This document shows, piece after piece, positions 42,202-63,519 of a stretch of DNA of 64,000 nt. Each line of letters opens with the position of its first letter. Position 1 is the stretch's first letter. The notes below the pieces were generated by a model that saw nothing but the letters and a program-made list of their open reading frames with translations, did no database searches and was not told the origin of the DNA. Location of the stretch: assembly GCF_900607235.1 (NCBI RefSeq), contig NZ_LR027848.1, positions 1,167,241 to 1,231,240 on the forward strand, in the 5' to 3' direction. The position numbers and the translations under genes are program-made. The stretch comes from Olivibacter jilunii (GTDB taxonomy: Bacteria; Bacteroidota; Bacteroidia; Sphingobacteriales; Sphingobacteriaceae).

Positions 42202-43353
42202 TTAAGTGAACCTTACTTGAAGATTAATCTTATAATACAGTTTATTTTGCTCCTCATAAAGCCAACCATAGTAATATTTCTTTCCATTGCTTTTTGGAAA
42301 TCCGGGATTTAATTCATCTTCTCCGGTAGAGGCCTGTTCAAACATTGTGTTGTTAAGAAGATAATTACTAAAAAGATTGAAGTCGTAAACATGGAAACAA
42401 ACTATGTCGCCATCATTTTTTGCAATTATGACACCGCCAAATGAATCATATTCGCCTATCCAGGGAGTTTCTGCCGTCATACCCATAGCAGATTCGATTA
42501 AGAATCGTTTTATTTTACTTTCGTAAAATTTTTGGCCTGAGGTTTCACCTCCATAAAATTCCATGGGATCGTTGGCCTCTAAGAGTTCTGTGACTTTTTT
42601 TATCGATGGTTCCCTAAAAAACCATCGATAGTACAAGGCCCAAGCCATTACTTCTGGAAGATCTCCATCAACTATTTTTAGATTTTTCCAAAGTTTACGG
42701 GACTGAATATCTTTGAATTTTAAACGACATCCCATTCTATGGAGCTCATTAAGCCGATAAGTCAACCTAGATGTTTTGTTTGGTGATTTATAGGTGTTTT
42801 TGTTAAAATCAGTAAGGTCGCAATTTGATTTGTTTTCAACCTCATATATGAAATTATTACCTAATCCTGTATTGAACAACGTGGAATCATTTCCCAGCAG
42901 AGATTTTATACTAAATCCAAGGTCAGTTTCTTTAGCAAGACGGTGATCATAAATTCTTAATTTTATATCAGCTTTAGTGGATGAATCTGCCTTAAGTTTG
43001 GTGATCAGAAGATCTCTGTCCAATGATTCACCGATTGGATTTATAGGAAAGGTTTTCCCTTTTCCAGTTTTTATGCCTTTTAATATCTCTTTCGAAATAG
43101 TTGTAAACTCGTCTATTGATACAGTGGCAACATGCTCGGCGGCTGAATTGATTACTTTATAAATCGTAATGTCATCAGCCCTACGGAAATCGAGGCGATA
43201 ATTCCGTTCGTCTTTATACGCGGTGACTATTTCATAGACATTGTCTGGATCCCTGTTAAGGGAAAAATCGGATTGAAAAAGCTTTCCATCAGCAATAACC
43301 TTTATCAATACATACAATTCGCTCCATTCTCCTTTATTTCCAACTAATGGCAT
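42202..43353 (-). CDS. HpaII-family type II restriction endonuclease
   Basis: A 383-residue enzyme of the HpaII family (CCGG cutters). The start NKGEWSELYVLIKVIADGKL is the family N-terminus. LGFSIKSLLGNDSTLFNTGL (near 155) is the conserved central block, and YESKIKRFLIESAMGMTAET and FHVYDFNLFSNYLLNNTMFE with KINLQVRF follow. The SIK and ESK residues are candidates for the metal-binding active site. It lies 9 bp after the methyltransferase stop, so R and M are co-transcribed. CCGG specificity is inferred from the family. Confidence 0.82.
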   Translation of the reverse strand: MPLVGNKGEWSELYVLIKVIADGKLFQSDFSLNRDPDNVYEIVTAYKDERNYRLDFRRADDITIYKVINSAAEHVATVSIDEFTTISKEILKGIKTGKGKTFPINPIGESLDRDLLITKLKADSSTKADIKLRIYDHRLAKETDLGFSIKSLLGNDSTLFNTGLGNNFIYEVENKSNCDLTDFNKNTYKSPNKTSRLTYRLNELHRMGCRLKFKDIQSRKLWKNLKIVDGDLPEVMAWALYYRWFFREPSIKKVTELLEANDPMEFYGGETSGQKFYESKIKRFLIESAMGMTAETPWIGEYDSFGGVIIAKNDGDIVCFHVYDFNLFSNYLLNNTMFEQASTGEDELNPGFPKSNGKKYYYGWLYEEQNKLYYKINLQVRFT

Positions 43354-43362
43354 AATACACTT

Positions 43363-44601
43363 TTAATTAGGTTGTTGCAGATTCAACTTTGCTAACAATT
43401 TTTCGGCCGTAGCTTGGATGGCTGGTACGGCAACCGAGTTTCCGAATTGTTTATAGGCTTGGACGTCCGATACACAGATCCTGTACGTGTCTGGGAAACC
43501 TTGCAGACGGGCCCACTCACGGGGAGTCATTTTCCGTATTCCTTCACGGTTTACTTCCCCTTTTATTTTGGTAACAGGGGTAAAGTTGCTAAGCCGTTCA
43601 TCAATTATCAGATTTCGCTCTCTGCCCATACCGCCACATACAACGGCATTAGCAATACTATCATTTGGTATTATCTCAAATCCGAATCCATTGCCTTTGC
43701 TTTCGTGTCTCGCTTTATGTTCTTTTAGCGTTTTTAAGTATTGAGTTGATAAGTAGTATTTTACTGAGACCTCCTCCTTTTCAAGGATGTCTTCGATAGC
43801 GACCGGTTGATCCAACGGTTCAGGATATTCAAACTGATCAATTCCCAAATCTTTATGATAGCCAATAATGAAAATACGTTCTCTATTCTGAGGCACTCCG
43901 AAATCTTTTGCGTTGATAATCTGTGGATCTGGTACAAAATAGTTTAGATCGTCTCTCAATACGTTTAATATCGTATTTAACGTTCTTCCTTTGTCATGGT
44001 TTCTAAGTCCCTTTACATTTTCCAAGAAAAAGGCTTTAGGCTGATGACGCCTAATAATTTCAGCGACATCAAAAAAAAGTGTTCCACGTGTATCTTCAAA
44101 TCCACCTCTTTTTCCGGCAATGGAAAATGCCTGACAAGGGAACCCGGCACAAAGAACATCGAAACGTTTTGGGATGAAGCCTTTGGTTGACTCTTTCGTG
44201 ATATCACCAAAAGGCACTTCTCCAAAATTAAATTCATAAGTCCTTTTTGCGCTTTCGTCCCACTCGCTAGTAAAGACGCATTTACCCCCCAGATTTTGAA
44301 ATGCCAACCGAAACCCACCAATACCTGCGAAGAGGTCTATAAAGGTAAATTTCGGTTTGTCAGGGGCAGGGAAAGGTATGTCCCATTTTATCGGAACTAA
44401 TTTCTTTAACGGTACAGCTTGGATCTTTTCGTTTCCCTGTTGGATTTCCTGATAGTATGAAATGGCCCGTTCCGCATAATCGATTGTATCTTCCAACGCG
44501 AAGTTCTGCAAATAATGGGTTAGGATAGCTACATTTTCCGCAGATCCGTTCATCTTTTCGATATTAAGATGTTTCCTAAAGTCCGAATAATTGACTTTCA
44601 T
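43363..44601 (-). CDS. DNA (cytosine-5) methyltransferase of the HpaII-type pair
   Basis: A 412-residue C5 methyltransferase with FTFIDLFAGIGGFRLAF (motif I, about 86-101), AGFPCQAFSIAG (motif IV, catalytic Cys156), FFLENVKGL (motif VI), QNRERIFIIGY (motif VIII) and QFGNSVAVPAI (motif X). An N-terminal extension of about 80 residues precedes motif I. It protects host DNA against the R gene that follows 9 bp later. The cognate site is probably CCGG. Decayed vsr and HNH copies lie on either side of the pair. Confidence 0.9.
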   Translation of the reverse strand: MKVNYSDFRKHLNIEKMNGSAENVAILTHYLQNFALEDTIDYAERAISYYQEIQQGNEKIQAVPLKKLVPIKWDIPFPAPDKPKFTFIDLFAGIGGFRLAFQNLGGKCVFTSEWDESAKRTYEFNFGEVPFGDITKESTKGFIPKRFDVLCAGFPCQAFSIAGKRGGFEDTRGTLFFDVAEIIRRHQPKAFFLENVKGLRNHDKGRTLNTILNVLRDDLNYFVPDPQIINAKDFGVPQNRERIFIIGYHKDLGIDQFEYPEPLDQPVAIEDILEKEEVSVKYYLSTQYLKTLKEHKARHESKGNGFGFEIIPNDSIANAVVCGGMGRERNLIIDERLSNFTPVTKIKGEVNREGIRKMTPREWARLQGFPDTYRICVSDVQAYKQFGNSVAVPAIQATAEKLLAKLNLQQPN

Positions 44602-55244: not shown

Positions 55245-56279
55245 CTACAAAAACTCAAATCCATTATTAGCAGCAATGGTAACCAAAGGATTGATTACAT
55301 CATAAAATTTTTCTTTCGATAATCCCTCTCGCCAATCCGTGCCGATATAAAAGTAATCTTCCAGGAGTTTTTCGTTTGGTTTTGCTTGGATGTAAGTGTT
55401 AATGGCTAGTTCTTGCAGTGCATAGAAAGCTTCAAAATGTTTGTCTAGTATCGGTAGCTTATTGCTTTTACTGATGTTGAAGCTGTTATCACAGGGGATA
55501 AGGTTCCATATCTGATCATGAGAAACAAAGCTGTAGGGTATAAAATGCTCTACATGGTATTGTTTTTTATGGAGTATCTTGCCTGTATAGATACAATTGA
55601 TCGGACCGTTTATATCGATAACAAAATCCCAGAACTTACGTTGTTTAAGTAGTGAACCACGAAGGGCGGGCTTAATCAGTTTACCTGGGATATCTGGCAC
55701 GTTTGGATTACGTGCCTGTAGAAAAAGTGTCAGGTTCCAATATACGTAATCCTTTACAATACGGAGATGTTGACCCAGGTATTCAAACCACTCGTCTTGT
55801 ATCACAATGCGGTCTTTGTGTAGATGGTACATGGGTTTATTAAAACCTTCTTGCGAATATTGATAGATGGCATTCCTATCGCTTTTAGGATACCAAGGGC
55901 TAAGGAACCAATGCGGAACCTGCTTATCAAAATGGAACAATAGTTTACGGGTAAGACGATTGCCTGTTTCCACGAGCCTGCTTTTAATCAACGACTTTGG
56001 TGCGTCTATGGTAATGCCCTCGATCTCTTTAATTTGCCTTACCGCATCTTGAATTAAGTCTTGTTGACCAAATGACACATTGAAGTAGTTCACCGTATAC
56101 CATGCATTTGCAATCATACTAGCAAATAACTCGTGCTTGTCCAATTCTTTCCGCCCATCCTGAACTCCATCCAATATGGCTAAAAGCCAATAGAATTTGT
56201 ATGTGGTGGATGTATTGTTAAAACATGCTGCCAGACGATGAACAGGAACAGCGTTGTTTAATGGAAACGTATGTGTCAT
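55245..56279 (-). CDS. HNH endonuclease
   Basis: A 344-residue HNH nuclease with CIYTGKILHKKQYHVEHFIP (His242, Glu244, His245) and IWNLIPCDNSFN (Asn259 and Asn265) and KSNKLP after it. The N-terminal 220 residues are helical and of unknown fold. A decayed duplicate with an internal deletion lies at 44798-45060. It is divergent from the vsr gene (about 110 bp apart). A role in restriction of modified DNA is inferred from context. Confidence 0.75.
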   Translation of the reverse strand: MTHTFPLNNAVPVHRLAACFNNTSTTYKFYWLLAILDGVQDGRKELDKHELFASMIANAWYTVNYFNVSFGQQDLIQDAVRQIKEIEGITIDAPKSLIKSRLVETGNRLTRKLLFHFDKQVPHWFLSPWYPKSDRNAIYQYSQEGFNKPMYHLHKDRIVIQDEWFEYLGQHLRIVKDYVYWNLTLFLQARNPNVPDIPGKLIKPALRGSLLKQRKFWDFVIDINGPINCIYTGKILHKKQYHVEHFIPYSFVSHDQIWNLIPCDNSFNISKSNKLPILDKHFEAFYALQELAINTYIQAKPNEKLLEDYFYIGTDWREGLSKEKFYDVINPLVTIAANNGFEFL

Positions 56280-57067: not shown

Positions 57068-58171
57068 ATGCAGCAAAACAGAAAAGAAGCGATTGAGTAC
57101 GTCCCAGTAGATCAATTGTTCTTTGATCCTGAAAATCCTAGACTGCCACGAACGGTAAATGGATCTGATGAGCAGGAAGTTATTAACTGGATGCTTGAAA
57201 ACGAAAATGTTATTGAGTTGATGGCTTCAATCGCAGAAAAAGGATTTTTTCCTGCAGAGCCGCTACTAGTGGAGAATAGAGTTCAAGGAGGTTATAATGT
57301 TATTGAAGGTAATAGGCGTCTGACTGCAGTAAAGTTGTTGTTGCGACCCGAGCTTGCTAAAATTAGAAAAAATTCAATTAGCGAAATAATTGCAGAGGGA
57401 AAGTATGTAGATAGCCTTCTAGAATTACCTGTCATTAAGTTTGTAAGTTCTAATGATATACAACTTTATCTAGGCTATAGACATATAACAGGAGTTCAAC
57501 CCTGGGATTCGCTGGCTAAGGCACGCTATCTTAAAAAGTTAAAAGAAAGCTTAGACGAAGAAAATCAGTCGGCACTTTATAAGAGCTTGGCAAAGATAAT
57601 CGGAAGTCGAGTTGACCACGTGAAGCTATTGTTGGCCGGACTAGCTGTCTATGAGAAAATAGAAGACTCTGGATTTTATCAAATAGACGGGCTTAATGAG
57701 AAAAATATAAAGTTCGGCGTCTTGTATACAGCGATCAACAATGGAAATATTGCAGATTTTATTGGAGTAAATCTGGATGACGAAAACCCAACTCAAGATA
57801 TTAAGGAGGATGAGTTAAAAGAGTTGGCAACTTGGATGTTCCAAAAAACACAAGATGGATTTACGAGGTTAGGAGAATCACGTAATTTGCGTCAACTAAA
57901 CAAGATCGTAAATAACGAAAAAGCGTTAACTGCGTTCCGAAGGGGAAGAACTTTATCCGACGCGGTATTACTGACAGATGAACCAATAGAAATCTTTCGA
58001 ATAAGTATTAAAGAGTCTCTTACTAGTTTAGAAACTGCGAGAGACTATGTTCACTATCTTAGTCATCCGAGTTCTTCCTATGAAGAGATACTTAGAGAAA
58101 TAAGGCTTATAAGTAAGAGTATATCTTCCGTATTGAAAGACAAGTTGACAGAAGAAGATGATGATTTTTAA
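57068..58171 (+). CDS. ParB-like nuclease-domain protein in a restriction-modification operon
   Basis: A 367-residue protein with a ParB/Srx-type N-terminal domain (residues about 10-130: EYVPVDQLFFDPENPRLPRT, MASIAEKGFFPAEPLLVENR and the GxRR-type VIEGNRRLTAVKLL). A helical DNA-binding-like part and a C-terminal helical region follow. There is no separate parS-like gene. The next gene starts 2 bp after its stop, and the C5 methyltransferase follows. An RM-linked ParB protein may help to locate or bind DNA sites. Function is inferred. Confidence 0.7.
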   Translation: MQQNRKEAIEYVPVDQLFFDPENPRLPRTVNGSDEQEVINWMLENENVIELMASIAEKGFFPAEPLLVENRVQGGYNVIEGNRRLTAVKLLLRPELAKIRKNSISEIIAEGKYVDSLLELPVIKFVSSNDIQLYLGYRHITGVQPWDSLAKARYLKKLKESLDEENQSALYKSLAKIIGSRVDHVKLLLAGLAVYEKIEDSGFYQIDGLNEKNIKFGVLYTAINNGNIADFIGVNLDDENPTQDIKEDELKELATWMFQKTQDGFTRLGESRNLRQLNKIVNNEKALTAFRRGRTLSDAVLLTDEPIEIFRISIKESLTSLETARDYVHYLSHPSSSYEEILREIRLISKSISSVLKDKLTEEDDDF

Positions 58172-58173
58172 CG

Positions 58174-59151
58174 ATGGGAACAAAAAAAAGTAATATTTAT
58201 TTTCCGAATTTCCAAAAAAAAGATAATCACCATTGGGCTGATTATTTAGAGCTTCTATGTGTTTTTAATATTGATAAAATGTTGTCACAGAATGATTTTA
58301 TCGATCGATTATCAAATAGAAGGGACAGAGAGGATACGGATGACTTTAAAAAACACCGAGCTGCGATAGAAATTAATCAAAATAATAGTATTCTTGCTGA
58401 AGACGTCTATAGTTTGATAGCTTATAGAGTAGAAGTGTTTAAGGGATACTATCCATTTTATTTAAGTGATGATAATAAAGTAATCTATTTCAAAGAGGAT
58501 ATTTCAGATAGATCTAAAATCTATATTCTTATGCTGTTTTGCTCTTGTTTAGGGGCATTTTCTAAATATAATTCGATTTTTACGAGTAGTTTTGAACAAC
58601 TCAGCTTATTAGTTTTAAAAGCAGTTTTGCCAGCCGGGGCCGAAGTTCATCTCTTTGGAAGTAGCAATATCGAGTCTGTAGGTGAGGAATCAAAAAAAAA
58701 TGAATTGTTTTGGGAAAAACTAACTACTTTAGCGGAGCATTTAAGAGAGCAAGTATTGATTAAAAGAGAAGACCTGTCTGAAAAGAACCGGGGGGATGGA
58801 GGATTAGACATATACGGATTAAGCCGATTAGGAGATAAAAATAAACATTTTCCTATTTACTTTTGTCAATGTGCATGCACTCCTGAATGGGTAAATAAGC
58901 AACATTCGTCTAAATTTGATTCGTGGAATGAATTTATTACCTTGTCGACATATCCCCTAAATGTGGTCTTTATTCCCTATTCATTTAGAAGAGCAAATGG
59001 CAACTGGCATGAAGAATACAAGATAAAAAAAAGTGTTGTTTTCGACAGACAAAGGATGCTACATCATTTACATGAAGAAATCGAATTGAAAAAATTTGAT
59101 TCATTTGATATAATTGCTGAAATTCTTGCAACTAAAGAGTCGGTGGTATAA
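58174..59151 (+). CDS. candidate restriction endonuclease
   Basis: A 325-residue protein between the ParB-like gene and the methyltransferase, 2 bp after and 9 bp before them. The best motif is RGDGGLDIYGLS (about 208-219), followed 13-15 residues later by HFPIYFCQCACTPEW, which resembles a PD-(D/E)xK core with the lysine replaced (DGGLDI ... QCAC) as in Mrr-like endonucleases. The N-terminal 200 residues are helical. I do not recognise a named restriction family. The position in the operon is the main support. Confidence 0.55.
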   Translation: MGTKKSNIYFPNFQKKDNHHWADYLELLCVFNIDKMLSQNDFIDRLSNRRDREDTDDFKKHRAAIEINQNNSILAEDVYSLIAYRVEVFKGYYPFYLSDDNKVIYFKEDISDRSKIYILMLFCSCLGAFSKYNSIFTSSFEQLSLLVLKAVLPAGAEVHLFGSSNIESVGEESKKNELFWEKLTTLAEHLREQVLIKREDLSEKNRGDGGLDIYGLSRLGDKNKHFPIYFCQCACTPEWVNKQHSSKFDSWNEFITLSTYPLNVVFIPYSFRRANGNWHEEYKIKKSVVFDRQRMLHHLHEEIELKKFDSFDIIAEILATKESVV

Positions 59152-59160
59152 TTAATTGAT

Positions 59161-60201
59161 ATGAATATTATATCCTTATTTTCTGGATGCGGGGGAATGG
59201 ACTTGGGCTTCGAAAGAGCTGGGTTTGAAGTTATTTGGGCCAATGATAATGCATCAAGTGTTTGGGAGACTTATGAGAGAAATTTTCCTGAAACAACGTT
59301 AGATAAGAGAAGCCTTTCCAAGATAGCTACTCGAGAAATACCAGACAATATTATGGGAATTATTGGCGGACCTCCATGCCAATCTTGGAGTGTTGCCGGT
59401 AAAGGAAGGGGCTTTGAAGATAAAAGAGGAAGACTTTTTTTTGATTTTATAAGGATAATACATGATAAGAAGCCGCTTTTTTTTGTAGCGGAGAATGTTG
59501 AAGGGCTTTTGTCTAAACGCAATCTGTTTGCATATAGAAATATCCTAAATTTATTGAATAACGCTGGAGATGGTTATGAAGTATCTGTACAAGTGTTAAA
59601 TGCAAATGACTATGGAGTTGCGCAAAACAGAAAAAGAGTTTTTTTTGTAGGATATGCAAAAGAGATGGGAAAGAAGTATTGCTTTCCGATGCCGAAATTA
59701 GAAAAGCCCGTCGTAAAAGATGCGATTTACGATTTGCGAGGGGAGATAGGCGCTTCAAATATTATAATACCAGAGGGCTTAAAGTCTGTACCAAATCATG
59801 AATTTTGGCAAGGAGGATATTCGTATATATTTATGTCCCGTAATCGCGTATTGTGTTGGGATGAGCCCTCGTTTACGATACAGGCGAGTGGTAGACAGAC
59901 ATCGCTACATCCAGATTCTCCACCGATGGAGAAAATCGGTAAAGATGTTCGGCGATTTGTGTCTGGAAAGGAATATATGTATAGGCGTCTTACTGTCAGA
60001 GAGTGCGCTAGGTTACAGTCATTTCCGGATGAATTCGTATTTAGGTATGGGAATCTAAATAGCGGGTATAAAATGGTAGGCAATTCCGTTCCAGTCAATT
60101 TAGCCTTCAGCCTTGCTGAAGTCATAGCTAATGACATTAAACAGTATATGAAGGGGAGCGATATTAATAATAAACGCTTTTTGGCGTCAGAAATTGCATA
60201 G
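59161..60201 (+). CDS. DNA (cytosine-5) methyltransferase, HaeIII-type
   Basis: A 346-residue enzyme: MNIISLFSGCGGMDLGF (motif I), GGPPCQSWSVAG (motif IV, Cys73), FFVAENVEGLL (motif VI), QNRKRVFFVGYA (motif VIII) and YKMVGNSVPVNLA (motif X). The target-recognition region IFMSRNRVLCWDEP and FTIQASGRQTSLHPDSPP is close to that of M.HaeIII, so the site is probably GGCC. It is the M gene of the operon with the ParB-like and candidate R genes. Confidence 0.88.
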   Translation: MNIISLFSGCGGMDLGFERAGFEVIWANDNASSVWETYERNFPETTLDKRSLSKIATREIPDNIMGIIGGPPCQSWSVAGKGRGFEDKRGRLFFDFIRIIHDKKPLFFVAENVEGLLSKRNLFAYRNILNLLNNAGDGYEVSVQVLNANDYGVAQNRKRVFFVGYAKEMGKKYCFPMPKLEKPVVKDAIYDLRGEIGASNIIIPEGLKSVPNHEFWQGGYSYIFMSRNRVLCWDEPSFTIQASGRQTSLHPDSPPMEKIGKDVRRFVSGKEYMYRRLTVRECARLQSFPDEFVFRYGNLNSGYKMVGNSVPVNLAFSLAEVIANDIKQYMKGSDINNKRFLASEIA

Positions 60202-60311
60202 AAGGGAAAATCAAATCTTCGAACACGTTGATATATAGTGCTGCCTGGTATATCAGCTTCAGCTAAGGTCTCGAAAGGAGAATTTCTGTTTCCAAGTTTA
60301 AATTACAAGTA

Positions 60312-60660
60312 AACGCATCTACCTCATGCTGATCCTCTGGGAAGTTATACACCTCTACGATCTTGCCATTGTCTATTTTCCACAATAAACAAGACATGTT
60401 ATCTAGATTAGTTTCACCATCTAAATTGCTCCAGTTGCGGTGGCAGTCGATCACATACTATCGCTTACCCCATTACAATAGGAGAGGCCTGGAATGCGGC
60501 TTTGCTTAGCTGTCCAAGGTATTCCACTACAGCCGGTATGCCGACCTTAGTTCCTGCTAGCGGATGCTTGCCCGGAATGTGCCATTTGATGTATTCTGCT
60601 AGTACATTGGCGAGCTGGTTGTCTCAATGCAGGCATCGATGCAGAGAAGCTCGTGTATCG
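60312..60660 (-). pseudogene. decayed copy of the NTF2-like gene at 63133
   Basis: The sequence is very similar to 63140-63490 on the same strand, with substitutions, small gaps and stops that break the reading frame into pieces. The intact piece (60312-60454) gives CHRNWSNLDGETNLDNMSCL and VEVYNFPEDQHEVDAF. With the intact gene it forms two direct copies on either side of the Septu-like pair. Confidence 0.75.
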
Positions 60661-60724: not shown

Positions 60725-61327
60725 TTAATTTTTATAGGTTACAATTTCAGAGATAAGTTTACGTTCCTCATCGGAAACTAAAGGACTCAATCTATCGAAC
60801 ATGAGCGTTCTGGCTCTGATAGTTGTTGACTCAAAATCGTCCCATTTAAAAAAGTCAATGGTATTTCTTCCAAGTTCAGTGGACTGCGTTCTATCAAATA
60901 CCACCTTATCCTCGTCTATAAATTTGATTTCGTCATCAGGATTATTGAAAAAGGGATGCACGATTAAAAAGGTGCAATCTTTGTAGTATTGTTGTAAATT
61001 TAAAACAGTTGCTTTTTGACCTTTTCTGGCGGTTGAATTGCAAGAGCTACAAGAATAGTATAAGTTGACAGTTACAAAGGTAAAGCGAGGATAAAGTGCT
61101 TTATGAGCAAAGTGGTCAATTTCATGTCCTAAACCAAATAAATAGCGTTCGCAGTAAGCACACTTACCTCTTTGGTTGTACGATAATTTCTTCGAAATTT
61201 CGTTTTTAACCCTTTTACTAATTGTCGACCAGGAATTAACCGTTAGCGATCCTTTTTTTTTGGTGAGTGAATTAATAGTTTTTTTACTTGCTTTAGAAAG
61301 CGACACTCTGGTAACAATATTAAGCAT
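60725..61327 (-). CDS. HNH endonuclease subunit of a Septu-like system (PtuB-like)
   Basis: A 200-residue HNH nuclease with zinc-binding Cys pairs: RGKCAYCERYLFGLGHEIDHF (Cys56, Cys59, Asp71-His72) and NLYYSCSSCNSTARKGQK (Asn88, Cys93, Cys96), then a C-terminal helical part. It overlaps the ATPase gene by 8 bp and is its effector partner; PtuAB pairs are known anti-phage systems. Confidence 0.8.
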   Translation of the reverse strand: MLNIVTRVSLSKASKKTINSLTKKKGSLTVNSWSTISKRVKNEISKKLSYNQRGKCAYCERYLFGLGHEIDHFAHKALYPRFTFVTVNLYYSCSSCNSTARKGQKATVLNLQQYYKDCTFLIVHPFFNNPDDEIKFIDEDKVVFDRTQSTELGRNTIDFFKWDDFESTTIRARTLMFDRLSPLVSDEERKLISEIVTYKN

Positions 61328-62924
61328 CTTTTTCAGAAATATATTTTTGTGTTTTTTCGATTATTATCTTCAAAGGGTCTTCCTCACTGAGCTGGACACT
61401 TTCAAGTTTTTTCAATATGGCGACTAATGTTTCATAATCATTTGAGCCGTTATTAATCATTGCTGTAAGTTTAACTAGATCGTACTCTAAATAACTGTTC
61501 CTCGTACTTCGAACATTGAAAACTTTATATAGCACCTCTTCGGCAGACCAGCCAAATGTGTTCTCTCCTTCTAACAGCCTTGCTTTAATCGTCTTCTCTT
61601 TATTTCCTTTTCTTTTCAGGGCGGTGATGGATGAACTTTGCCCCTCTAAATCTGAAACTAAAAAATGCGAATGGGTAGTAAGAACAAAATGACAATTTGA
61701 AAGGTTCGAAAACGCTTTCTTTAAAAAGGAGATATATTGCATTTGCCAATTCGGATGTAAACTTATCTCTGGTTCATCAATTAAGATAAGGCTGTTATTA
61801 TCGATCCTTGAAAAGATGTTTACTATTGAAAGAAGGAGACTTGACTCGCCTGAACTTATTTCTGTGGTTGTAAATTCATTGCCAGCCTTTTTTATTTTGA
61901 TACCGTCTAGGCCTAGAATATCTAACCTTTCAAGGTGTTGAATAGATCTAATTTCTTCAGAGGACGTGTTGACGTTTAGAAAATCAACTATGAATGCTTT
62001 TGTTGATGAATTTGGTTTTTTCTTTAGTTTTTCGTCACTATTGATAATGCCCTCTAGGTAATCGATAATTTTGCGTATCTCCGTTTCTTTCCCTTTGAAA
62101 TTGTTGTCGTAGTAGGATTTGCTCCAAGGCGGATTATTCTCCTTTCGCGCAGAGAATTTAAAATCCTCTTCCCACCAACGTTCATAAAACTTGATAAAGT
62201 TCGAGACAGTTAGTGAGTTAGAAAAAAATAAACTATTATACCTTGTTGTATATTGAACTTTAAAAGTTTCTTCGAAATCTAAGAAATTAAGCAATTGTTT
62301 TAGATTATTAACAAAGGAATCGTTTGTGATAGATGCACTAAACAGGTTGCCTATGGTTTTCCGTTGTGCAGCCCGGGTGCTTGTTGAGCCACTACCGCTA
62401 CGGAGTCCTAAATACTGATAAAACTCATCGGGTTGACTATCTTTAAATGTGAATCTGTCGTTATAAATTAACGATACTGCTAAAACTTTGCTCGGAAGTT
62501 TTAGATCTTTTAAATCTATATCGAAGGGCGTTTTATTTTTTTCAAAGGGGATATCATCTTCAAAATAATCAAAATTAAAAGGTCTGTCTTTGAAAAATCT
62601 ATGGTTCCTTGTAACATTTGTTTTGTTCACAGCAATAAGCCTGTAAGTTGCGATTTCAAAGCTGCTTCCGTCTACGTGGTATCTCAATATAAATGAGTAC
62701 GCTATCCTAACAACGCTTGTACCTGTAGCCTTGTATTCTTCGAACTGACGAAATATCTCCGCTATCTCGCGCAAAATATAACTCTTTCCAGTTCCATTCG
62801 GTCCTATTATAACGGAAGTATATGGTTTAGAAGCATTATTTAACTCCGATAGTTCTAAAAGTGGTACATCAATGTCACCGAGCTGAGGATGTCCAATAAA
62901 TTTTATTCGTTCTAATCTAAACAT
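61320..62924 (-). CDS. AAA/ABC-type ATPase of a Septu-like system (PtuA-like)
   Basis: A 534-residue OLD/Rad50-like ATPase: Walker A IIGPNGTGKSYIL (about 40-50), a long helical insert, the ABC signature region ISSGESSLLLSIV (about 355-367), Walker B LILIDEPEISLHPNW (about 378-392) and a D-loop/His region LTTHSHF. It overlaps the HNH gene by 8 bp, which is the PtuA-PtuB arrangement of Septu. The PtuA complex holds PtuB inactive until infection in known systems. Confidence 0.8.
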   Translation of the reverse strand: MFRLERIKFIGHPQLGDIDVPLLELSELNNASKPYTSVIIGPNGTGKSYILREIAEIFRQFEEYKATGTSVVRIAYSFILRYHVDGSSFEIATYRLIAVNKTNVTRNHRFFKDRPFNFDYFEDDIPFEKNKTPFDIDLKDLKLPSKVLAVSLIYNDRFTFKDSQPDEFYQYLGLRSGSGSTSTRAAQRKTIGNLFSASITNDSFVNNLKQLLNFLDFEETFKVQYTTRYNSLFFSNSLTVSNFIKFYERWWEEDFKFSARKENNPPWSKSYYDNNFKGKETEIRKIIDYLEGIINSDEKLKKKPNSSTKAFIVDFLNVNTSSEEIRSIQHLERLDILGLDGIKIKKAGNEFTTTEISSGESSLLLSIVNIFSRIDNNSLILIDEPEISLHPNWQMQYISFLKKAFSNLSNCHFVLTTHSHFLVSDLEGQSSSITALKRKGNKEKTIKARLLEGENTFGWSAEEVLYKVFNVRSTRNSYLEYDLVKLTAMINNGSNDYETLVAILKKLESVQLSEEDPLKIIIEKTQKYISEKDA

Positions 62925-63132: not shown

Positions 63133-63519
63133 CTAAAAAAATGCATCTACCTTATGCTGGTCTTCTGGAAAGTTGTAAACCTCTACGATTTTACCATTGT
63201 CTATTTTCCGCAATAGGCACGACATATTATCTAGATTGATTTCACCTTCTAAATTGCTCCAGTTGCGGTGGCAGTCGATCACATATTGATCAGTTACACC
63301 CATTACAATAGGAGAGGCTTGGAATGCGGCTTTGCTTAGCTGCCCAAGGTATTCTACTACAGCTGGTATGCCGACTTTGGTTCCTGCTAGCGGACGCTTG
63401 CCCGGAATGTGCCATTTGATGTCTTCTGCTAGTACATTGCCGAGTTGATCGGTTTCATTGCTGGCATAGATGCGGAAAAATTCGTGTATTAGTGCTACGT
63501 TCGGATGATTTGTGTCCAT
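63133..63519 (-). CDS. SnoaL/NTF2-like protein
   Basis: A 128-residue NTF2-fold protein: NVALIHEFFRIYASNETDQL, EDIKWHIPGKRPLAGTKVG and a C-terminal IDNGKIVEVYNFPEDQHKVD. The pocket residues cannot be assigned to a reaction; many members are limonene-epoxide-hydrolase or polyketide-cyclase-like. The start ATG 63519 gives the usual family length. A decayed copy lies at 60312-60660, on the other side of the Septu-like genes. Confidence 0.78.
   Translation of the reverse strand: MDTNHPNVALIHEFFRIYASNETDQLGNVLAEDIKWHIPGKRPLAGTKVGIPAVVEYLGQLSKAAFQASPIVMGVTDQYVIDCHRNWSNLEGEINLDNMSCLLRKIDNGKIVEVYNFPEDQHKVDAFF

Follow-up and report, generated by a model that had tools for sequence, protein, structure and literature searches.

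The stretch of Olivibacter jilunii DNA analysed here, 64,000 nucleotides long and called the window below, carries an operon of three genes encoding a ParB-like protein (hereafter ParB), a protein that we call X, and a C5-cytosine DNA methyltransferase (Table 1). The genes lie on the same strand with intergenic gaps of 2 and 9 bp, just as a sequence-only reading of the locus had described them; that reading proposed a candidate variant nuclease and a HaeIII-type methyltransferase, with ParB as an unusual third subunit. What it missed is that ParB and X form a fixed pair of which the methyltransferase is an exchangeable companion, and that this pair also has phosphorothioation genes or an adenine methyltransferase as neighbours in some relatives.

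Table 1. Genes of the ParB-X locus and the adjoining Vsr gene, in window coordinates
Feature	Positions	Strand	Basis and predicted domains
ParB-like protein, 367 aa	57068-58171	+	Open reading frame list; predicted ParB/Srx-type fold ~8-145, ParB-type helix-turn-helix ~148-200, helical C-terminal part
Protein X, 325 aa	58174-59151	+	Predicted winged-helix-like domain ~10-108 and PD-(D/E)XK nuclease domain ~109-304
C5-cytosine DNA methyltransferase, 346 aa, M.HaeIII-like	59161-60201	+	Pfam, NCBIfam and solved-structure match; GGCC predicted by homology
Vsr-type mismatch endonuclease, 174 aa	56388-56912	+	155 bp upstream of ParB; Pfam Vsr E 5.9e-33

Relatives of the locus were collected mostly by ParB similarity alone, as the best 80 loci from genomes and the best 80 from viral contigs, with others retrieved through similarity to X; the resulting set comprises 177 ParB hits in 178 loci, counts the window locus and one other locus two times each, and includes the seed loci. 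X lies directly downstream of ParB in 174 of the 177 hits. The three without it are L097, where the contig stops 17 bp further along, L077, and the second ParB of L170, which is a PD-Lambda-5_A protein. The converse search, starting from X in 395 genomes of the phylum to which the window belongs, yielded 12 matches spread over 10 genomes, with ParB adjacent in nine of the 12; one of the remaining matches is at a contig end and two are fragments of 49-50 profile positions. Thus, the co-occurrence of ParB and the nuclease, which the sequence-only reading had put forward as a point to check, is seen from both sides. All nine pairs found through X have a methyltransferase beside them (five C5 and four of the D12 class), with the provisos that only the C-terminal part of the G317 methyltransferase was fetched, that the X gene of G207:C52 is broken by a stop, and that in G215 an open reading frame intervenes between the D12 gene and the pair. 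The host genome holds a single X, and a search of viral contigs with X alone recovered no relative. On a gut phage-like contig (L003:2833-7672) there are two convergent ParB-X pairs, with no methyltransferase in the fetched stretch.

The two genes also travel together. Over 6,465 pairs of loci with a C5 methyltransferase, the identity between ParB proteins correlates with that between X proteins at r 0.94, and methyltransferase identity correlates more weakly with both (r 0.36 with ParB and r 0.43 with X); as many of these locus pairs are close kin, the correlations are descriptive. Likewise, in the E. coli phages 12474II (L004) and Wphi (L005) the methyltransferases are 97.8% identical and the DNA from there on 93.9%, against 31.9% for ParB and 24.0% for X, with the homology beginning at the border between X and the methyltransferase. 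These sequence comparisons support the view that ParB and X are exchanged as one unit. Of 5,426 complete E. coli genomes, 103 carry a Wphi-type locus and 36 a locus of a second type when at least 80% of the query is required to be covered, the laboratory strain E. coli W, with the gp98-gp96-mth genes of Wphi, being among the carriers; these versions sit in P2-like prophages. Among the 6,465 pairs there is none in which X is at least 65% identical and the methyltransferase less than 60%. ParB genes are common on mobile DNA, which speaks for ParB as an unrelated partition gene that came to lie beside a restriction-modification pair by chance. The adjacency counts from the two sides, along with the close correlation of ParB and X identities, contradict such an accident, and we give it practically no credence.

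Searches of Pfam, NCBIfam and PADLOC at E<=1 gave nothing convincing for X itself, the single Pfam row having an E value of 0.058, and consistent with the earlier suggestion neither Pfam nor NCBIfam links it to a HaeIII-type or other named restriction enzyme. It matches phrog_3984, annotated as 'unknown function' (E 4.1e-44). A profile built from 109 X proteins retrieved from the PDB only the catalytic core of MspJI, weakly (E 0.13), and profile searching turned up no non-nuclease family. In the predicted structure (pLDDT, the predicted local distance difference test score, 91.3; pTM, the predicted template modelling score, 0.90), residues 1 to ~108 resemble winged-helix domains such as those of E2F-DP (Z 6.8) and Brr2 (Z 6.6) in the VIA comparison, and residues ~109-304 resemble MspJI (Z 7.5), N.BspD6I (7.3-7.5), AspBHI (6.7), FokI (6.7), EcoT38I (6.7) and R.BspD6I2 (6.6). 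Restriction enzymes make up nearly all of the leading nuclease rows for the model, and the same core is reached independently by the sequence profile. We regard the case for a PD-(D/E)XK superfamily fold in X, as the sequence-only reading had surmised, as good but not beyond doubt.

For residue conservation, the 174 X proteins were first reduced to the 165 that are full length and on the + strand and then thinned to 119 at 75% identity, of which 110 come from L007-L166; L028 and the second copy of L048 were omitted from the alignment. In the 109 aligned sequences, the window included, D212 and Q232 are invariant, K242 is present in 108 and C233 in 104, and the canonical lysine position, 234, holds A, G, T or F. 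The DGGLDI...QCAC pattern noticed earlier is conserved, and it would represent a variant core in which the lysine is shifted from position 234 (A/G) to K242, a residue that could be the candidate replacement for the canonical one. In the profile alignment at E 0.13, D334 and Q355 of MspJI, both in the catalytic core of that enzyme, align with D212 and Q232, and MspJI K357 falls on A234. The sole X without K242, from Terrimonas (L014:8058-9119), has lost C233 as well; at this locus the nearest C5 methyltransferase is 4.1 kb off, with none within 2.6 kb. Individual members of the family give scattered Pfam matches, including CapR in five and Mrr_cat in one (E 0.019), and PADLOC finds mREase_II in two (weak, best E 1.2e-4) and LmuA in two. 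The HARE-HTH-REase proteins mentioned in passages of PMC10853773 have no row among the 17 Pfam families listed for X, a check made in Pfam only.

The partner of X matches phrog_3694, likewise annotated as 'unknown function' (E 2.8e-100). Its match to Pfam ParB_N (E 5.2e-5, 23.7 bits) is below the 26.3-bit cut-off, and the fold is supported by a predicted structure with a pLDDT of 94.8. This model aligns with KorB (8qa9, VIA Z 10.3), ParB (7bnk, 10.2) and Noc (7nfu, 10.0) from residues 4-9 to ~280-294, with ParB-fold matches in the range 9.4-10.3, and points to a ParB/Srx-fold N-terminal domain followed by a ParB-type helix-turn-helix. In an alignment of 108 sequences, which omits L147, L118 and the second copy of L048, the residues E64, E80, G81, N82, R84, H139, G142, W146 and K151 are invariant. 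Box II, of the GxRR type, takes the form EGNRR and is nearly unchanged, with its E80, G81, N82 and R84 among the invariant positions. The canonical ParB Box III reads ENxxR; in its place these proteins have a conserved YRHITG segment. On the whole ParB is better conserved than X, and its helix-turn-helix is conserved where the winged helix of X is more variable.

The methyltransferase of the window belongs to PF00145 (E 3.1e-90), and its closest solved structure is M.HaeIII (1dct, E 9e-117), to which it aligns over residues 1-323. The recognition region falls within this alignment and is matched without large gaps, bearing out the M.HaeIII-like recognition region proposed before. Because of this homology the enzyme is predicted to mark GGCC, and probably does. 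The host genome has four C5 methyltransferase genes, that of the window included (five matches, two of which are pieces of one gene). The Vsr protein encoded upstream scores 138.6 bits against TIGR00632 of NCBIfam, over a cut-off of 97.85; members of this family repair deaminated 5-methylcytosine, and the window protein is a probable accessory with this role. Relatives of Vsr occur in six of the 178 loci. In one of them the two enzymes appear to be fused: a single open reading frame beside ParB-X, L009:9137-10555, scores 412.6 bits against the C5 methyltransferase and 126.2 bits against Vsr.

A three-gene operon with an M.HaeIII-like methyltransferase might be an ordinary type II system, in which X alone, as a sequence-specific restriction enzyme, cuts GGCC that is not methylated, with ParB serving in regulation or delivery outside the cutting machine. 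X does appear from its model to have a DNA-binding winged helix of its own next to the nuclease domain, and the absence of any locus pair combining similar X proteins with divergent methyltransferases is as expected if the two share a specificity. Against this, almost no locus lacks ParB, and its conservation exceeds that of X, when one would expect more frequent loss or replacement of a gene that is no more than a regulator; moreover, a GGCC-type enzyme would be senseless beside phosphorothioation genes unless its specificity had changed. We consider this explanation rather unlikely.

The modification genes next to the pair are indeed of several kinds. Of the 177 cases, 126 have a C5 methyltransferase no more than 2.6 kb away and 17 have dnd genes within 6 kb; 16 of these 17 have two or more dnd genes and one has dndC alone. 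In 13 loci dndC, dndD, dndE, ParB and X are contiguous on one strand, with dndE-ParB gaps of -32 to +14 bp, and L046, whose contig begins inside dndD, is a fourteenth. DndC is over the NCBIfam cut-off in L030, from Marixanthomonas spongiae (423.9 bits versus 290.4), and in L047; DndD is over it in two of the three scanned (L031 and L071), that of L030 being just short (235.4 versus 245.85). L030 and L071 have a clear Pfam DndE match (PF08870), and for L031 and L068 the fused DndE proteins are below the NCBIfam cut-off. L049 and L063 have IscS/DndA-like cysteine desulfurases after X. The hosts of the dnd-linked loci are Flavobacteriia, Cytophagales, Bacteroidales and one gammaproteobacterium; the host genome of the window has no DndE match. 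In L071, L068 and L031, the gene immediately before ParB-X encodes a fusion of DndE with a HerA/FtsK-like ATPase. At L029:5278-6996 there is a GmrSD-type gene (PF03235 and PF07510) that overlaps ParB-X at its start; this locus also has dndC, 4 kb downstream of X.

A third kind of partner is seen in the divergent relatives L179, L184 and L185, where a methyltransferase of the D12 class (PF02086) stands directly before ParB-X, and in L182, where it is 0.9 kb upstream. On the tree, one change between C5 and dnd is needed when the rows with neither partner are omitted (23 rows), and 18 changes when 'neither' is treated as a state; setting the dnd label against all other rows gives five changes. 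The X proteins of the phosphorothioate-linked clade share the substitutions D208E (13 of 16), R272I (12 of 16), W278F (14 of 16) and D291E (14 of 16). We do not take these to be phosphorothioate-specific residues, because the clade is a single branch and shared descent explains them equally well.

The nearest tested defence system, judging by sequence, is PD-lambda-5, with which the locus shares a ParB-type domain at the N terminus (E 1.4e-24 for the match of the window ParB with PD-Lambda-5_A), an adjacent DNA methyltransferase and an occurrence in prophages; the methyltransferases beside ParB-X in L179 and L184 match PD-Lambda-5_B (E 1.1e-110 and 2.2e-43). However, ParB of the window matches only the N-terminal ~165 residues of PD-Lambda-5_A models of 440-500 positions, PD-Lambda-5_A has a C-terminal region and no separate X, the X profile finds no match in two PD-lambda-5-like loci, and the window methyltransferase is C5 rather than D12 as in PD-Lambda-5_B. 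In L179:2472-6907 the order is a PD-Lambda-5_B-type D12 methyltransferase, ParB, X and a convergent PD-Lambda-5_A, which by sequence we read as two ParB-type modules or effectors around one shared methyltransferase. The authors of PD-lambda-5 suggested 'RM+Abi', restriction-modification with abortive infection, for that system (passages of PMC9519451). By extension ParB or the modification enzyme might keep X silent, so that its release kills the cell when modification is blocked or a phage is sensed. The relationship of the ParB domains and the arrangement in L179 speak for this, and the predicted fold of X, a DNase type like that of restriction enzymes and not a known RNase or membrane effector, against it; we think it unlikely.

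Similarly, SspE and DndI couple a ParB-like nucleotide domain to a nuclease beside a DNA-modification operon, as a DUF262 NTPase fused to an HNH nuclease that senses phosphorothioate, and the structural comparison of the window ParB also lists SspE (7drr, Z 4.0). In contrast, ParB and X are separate proteins, the predicted nuclease is PD-(D/E)XK and not HNH, ParB has a ParB-type helix-turn-helix, and the partner marks include base methylation. With DndBCDE-FGH, PbeABCD and other Dnd-linked modules the locus has in common the position directly after dndCDE, seen in the 13 relatives above and described in parts of PMC10853773 as a slot used by other nucleases; the ParB mentions in the main text of that paper, as far as these parts go, concern DndB or the ParB superfamily generally and none is ParB-X. 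The HaeIII system resembles the locus in its methyltransferase and differs in that X has no R.HaeIII-type match (Pfam at E<=1, NCBIfam) and that a ParB partner is present. The Mrr-like MspJI family comes closest to the nuclease core of X by profile and by structure, with the Q conserved, and differs in its N-terminal domain and in the K357 position, which is A, G or T in nearly all X proteins, with K242 instead. A description of ParB-X as a restriction module was not found in the literature searched, which excluded supplements, preprints and REBASE, and to this limited extent the module has not been described before.

Taken together, the nuclease fold with candidate D, Q and K residues, the ParB fold with its helix-turn-helix, the co-inheritance of ParB and X, the adjoining modification enzyme in most relatives and the exchange of the pair as a unit lead us to propose, with fair assurance, that the three genes constitute a restriction-modification system whose restriction half consists of a ParB-type switch and nuclease X. 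The methyltransferase would mark host DNA, probably at GGCC. ParB would bind and hydrolyse nucleotide and act as a DNA-binding switch that decides where or when X, a predicted winged-helix PD-(D/E)XK nuclease, cuts DNA, so that unmarked DNA is attacked. By analogy with the ParB-like domains of SspE and DndI, ParB may itself be the sensor of the mark; in DndI, according to passages of PMC11662687, phosphorothioate stimulates the ATPase and frees the enzyme from self DNA.

Several observations weigh against this proposal. It rests on sequences and predicted structures; the VIA Z scores for X do not exceed 7.5, below the value of 8 and 'middling' on the scale of the tool, and the best Foldseek E value is 0.04. 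The genome and viral lists are biased towards relatives of the window ParB. In 34 of the 177 cases, some at contig ends, neither a C5 methyltransferase nor dnd genes are nearby. GGCC is only mildly depleted in 400 kb of the host genome, with an observed/expected ratio of 0.85, the fourth lowest of 16 palindromes. Viewed from the DndE side, ParB-X is downstream in none of nine DndE-bearing genomes (395 sampled), which makes the dnd pairing a minority arrangement, one of several modules at that position. Finally, the genomes of L026 and L043 contain no PF00145 and no DndE match (D12 was not searched there), which shows that neither a C5 nor a dnd partner is indispensable to ParB-X. These two genomes would also suit a type IV-like system in which X, whose nearest solved relative is the modification-dependent MspJI, attacks DNA with foreign modifications. 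The profile and structure matches of X to MspJI and AspBHI, and the weak mREase_II matches of two of the 109 members, point the same way. Yet most pairs have a methyltransferase or dnd operon next to them, which would then mark the host for self-attack, and MspJI reads DNA through an SRA-like domain that a winged helix replaces in X; we find this alternative quite improbable.

Other genes of the window also merit mention. On the minus strand at 42202-44601 there is a separate pair that looks like a classical type II system, comprising a C5 methyltransferase (43363-44601) and, 9 bp downstream of it, a protein that PADLOC assigns to one of its type II restriction enzyme models (E 1.1e-58). A Septu-type pair lies at 60725-62924 (-), with PtuA at 61320-62924 (E 8.9e-113) and PtuB at 60725-61327 (E 1.9e-28). 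It is flanked by a direct duplication (~60311-60658 and 63139-63489, 87.7% identical over 351 columns), of which the far copy is an intact 128-aa open reading frame and the near one a 63-aa remnant; this suggests insertion by boundary-gene duplication. Adjoining the Vsr gene, at 55245-56279 (-), is a 344-aa protein with an HNH_4 domain (Cas9-type HNH, E 8.2e-12).

The restriction halves of such systems are usually tied to one modification chemistry, and a compact pair occurring with three would make a natural experiment on how self DNA is recognized. We tentatively raise the possibility, more doubtful than not in our view, that ParB-X is a restriction cassette agnostic to the kind of modification, which evolution has joined in turn with 5-methylcytosine, N6-methyladenine and phosphorothioate. 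If this is true, self-recognition would proceed not through a reader of one chemistry but through a general step, for example the loading or sliding of a ParB clamp on unprotected DNA only, or direct contact with the modification enzyme. A pair of this kind would also link the biology of ParB proteins, as nucleotide-driven DNA clamps, to restriction, and the present analysis provides phrog_3694 and phrog_3984, both so far of 'unknown function', with a predicted one.

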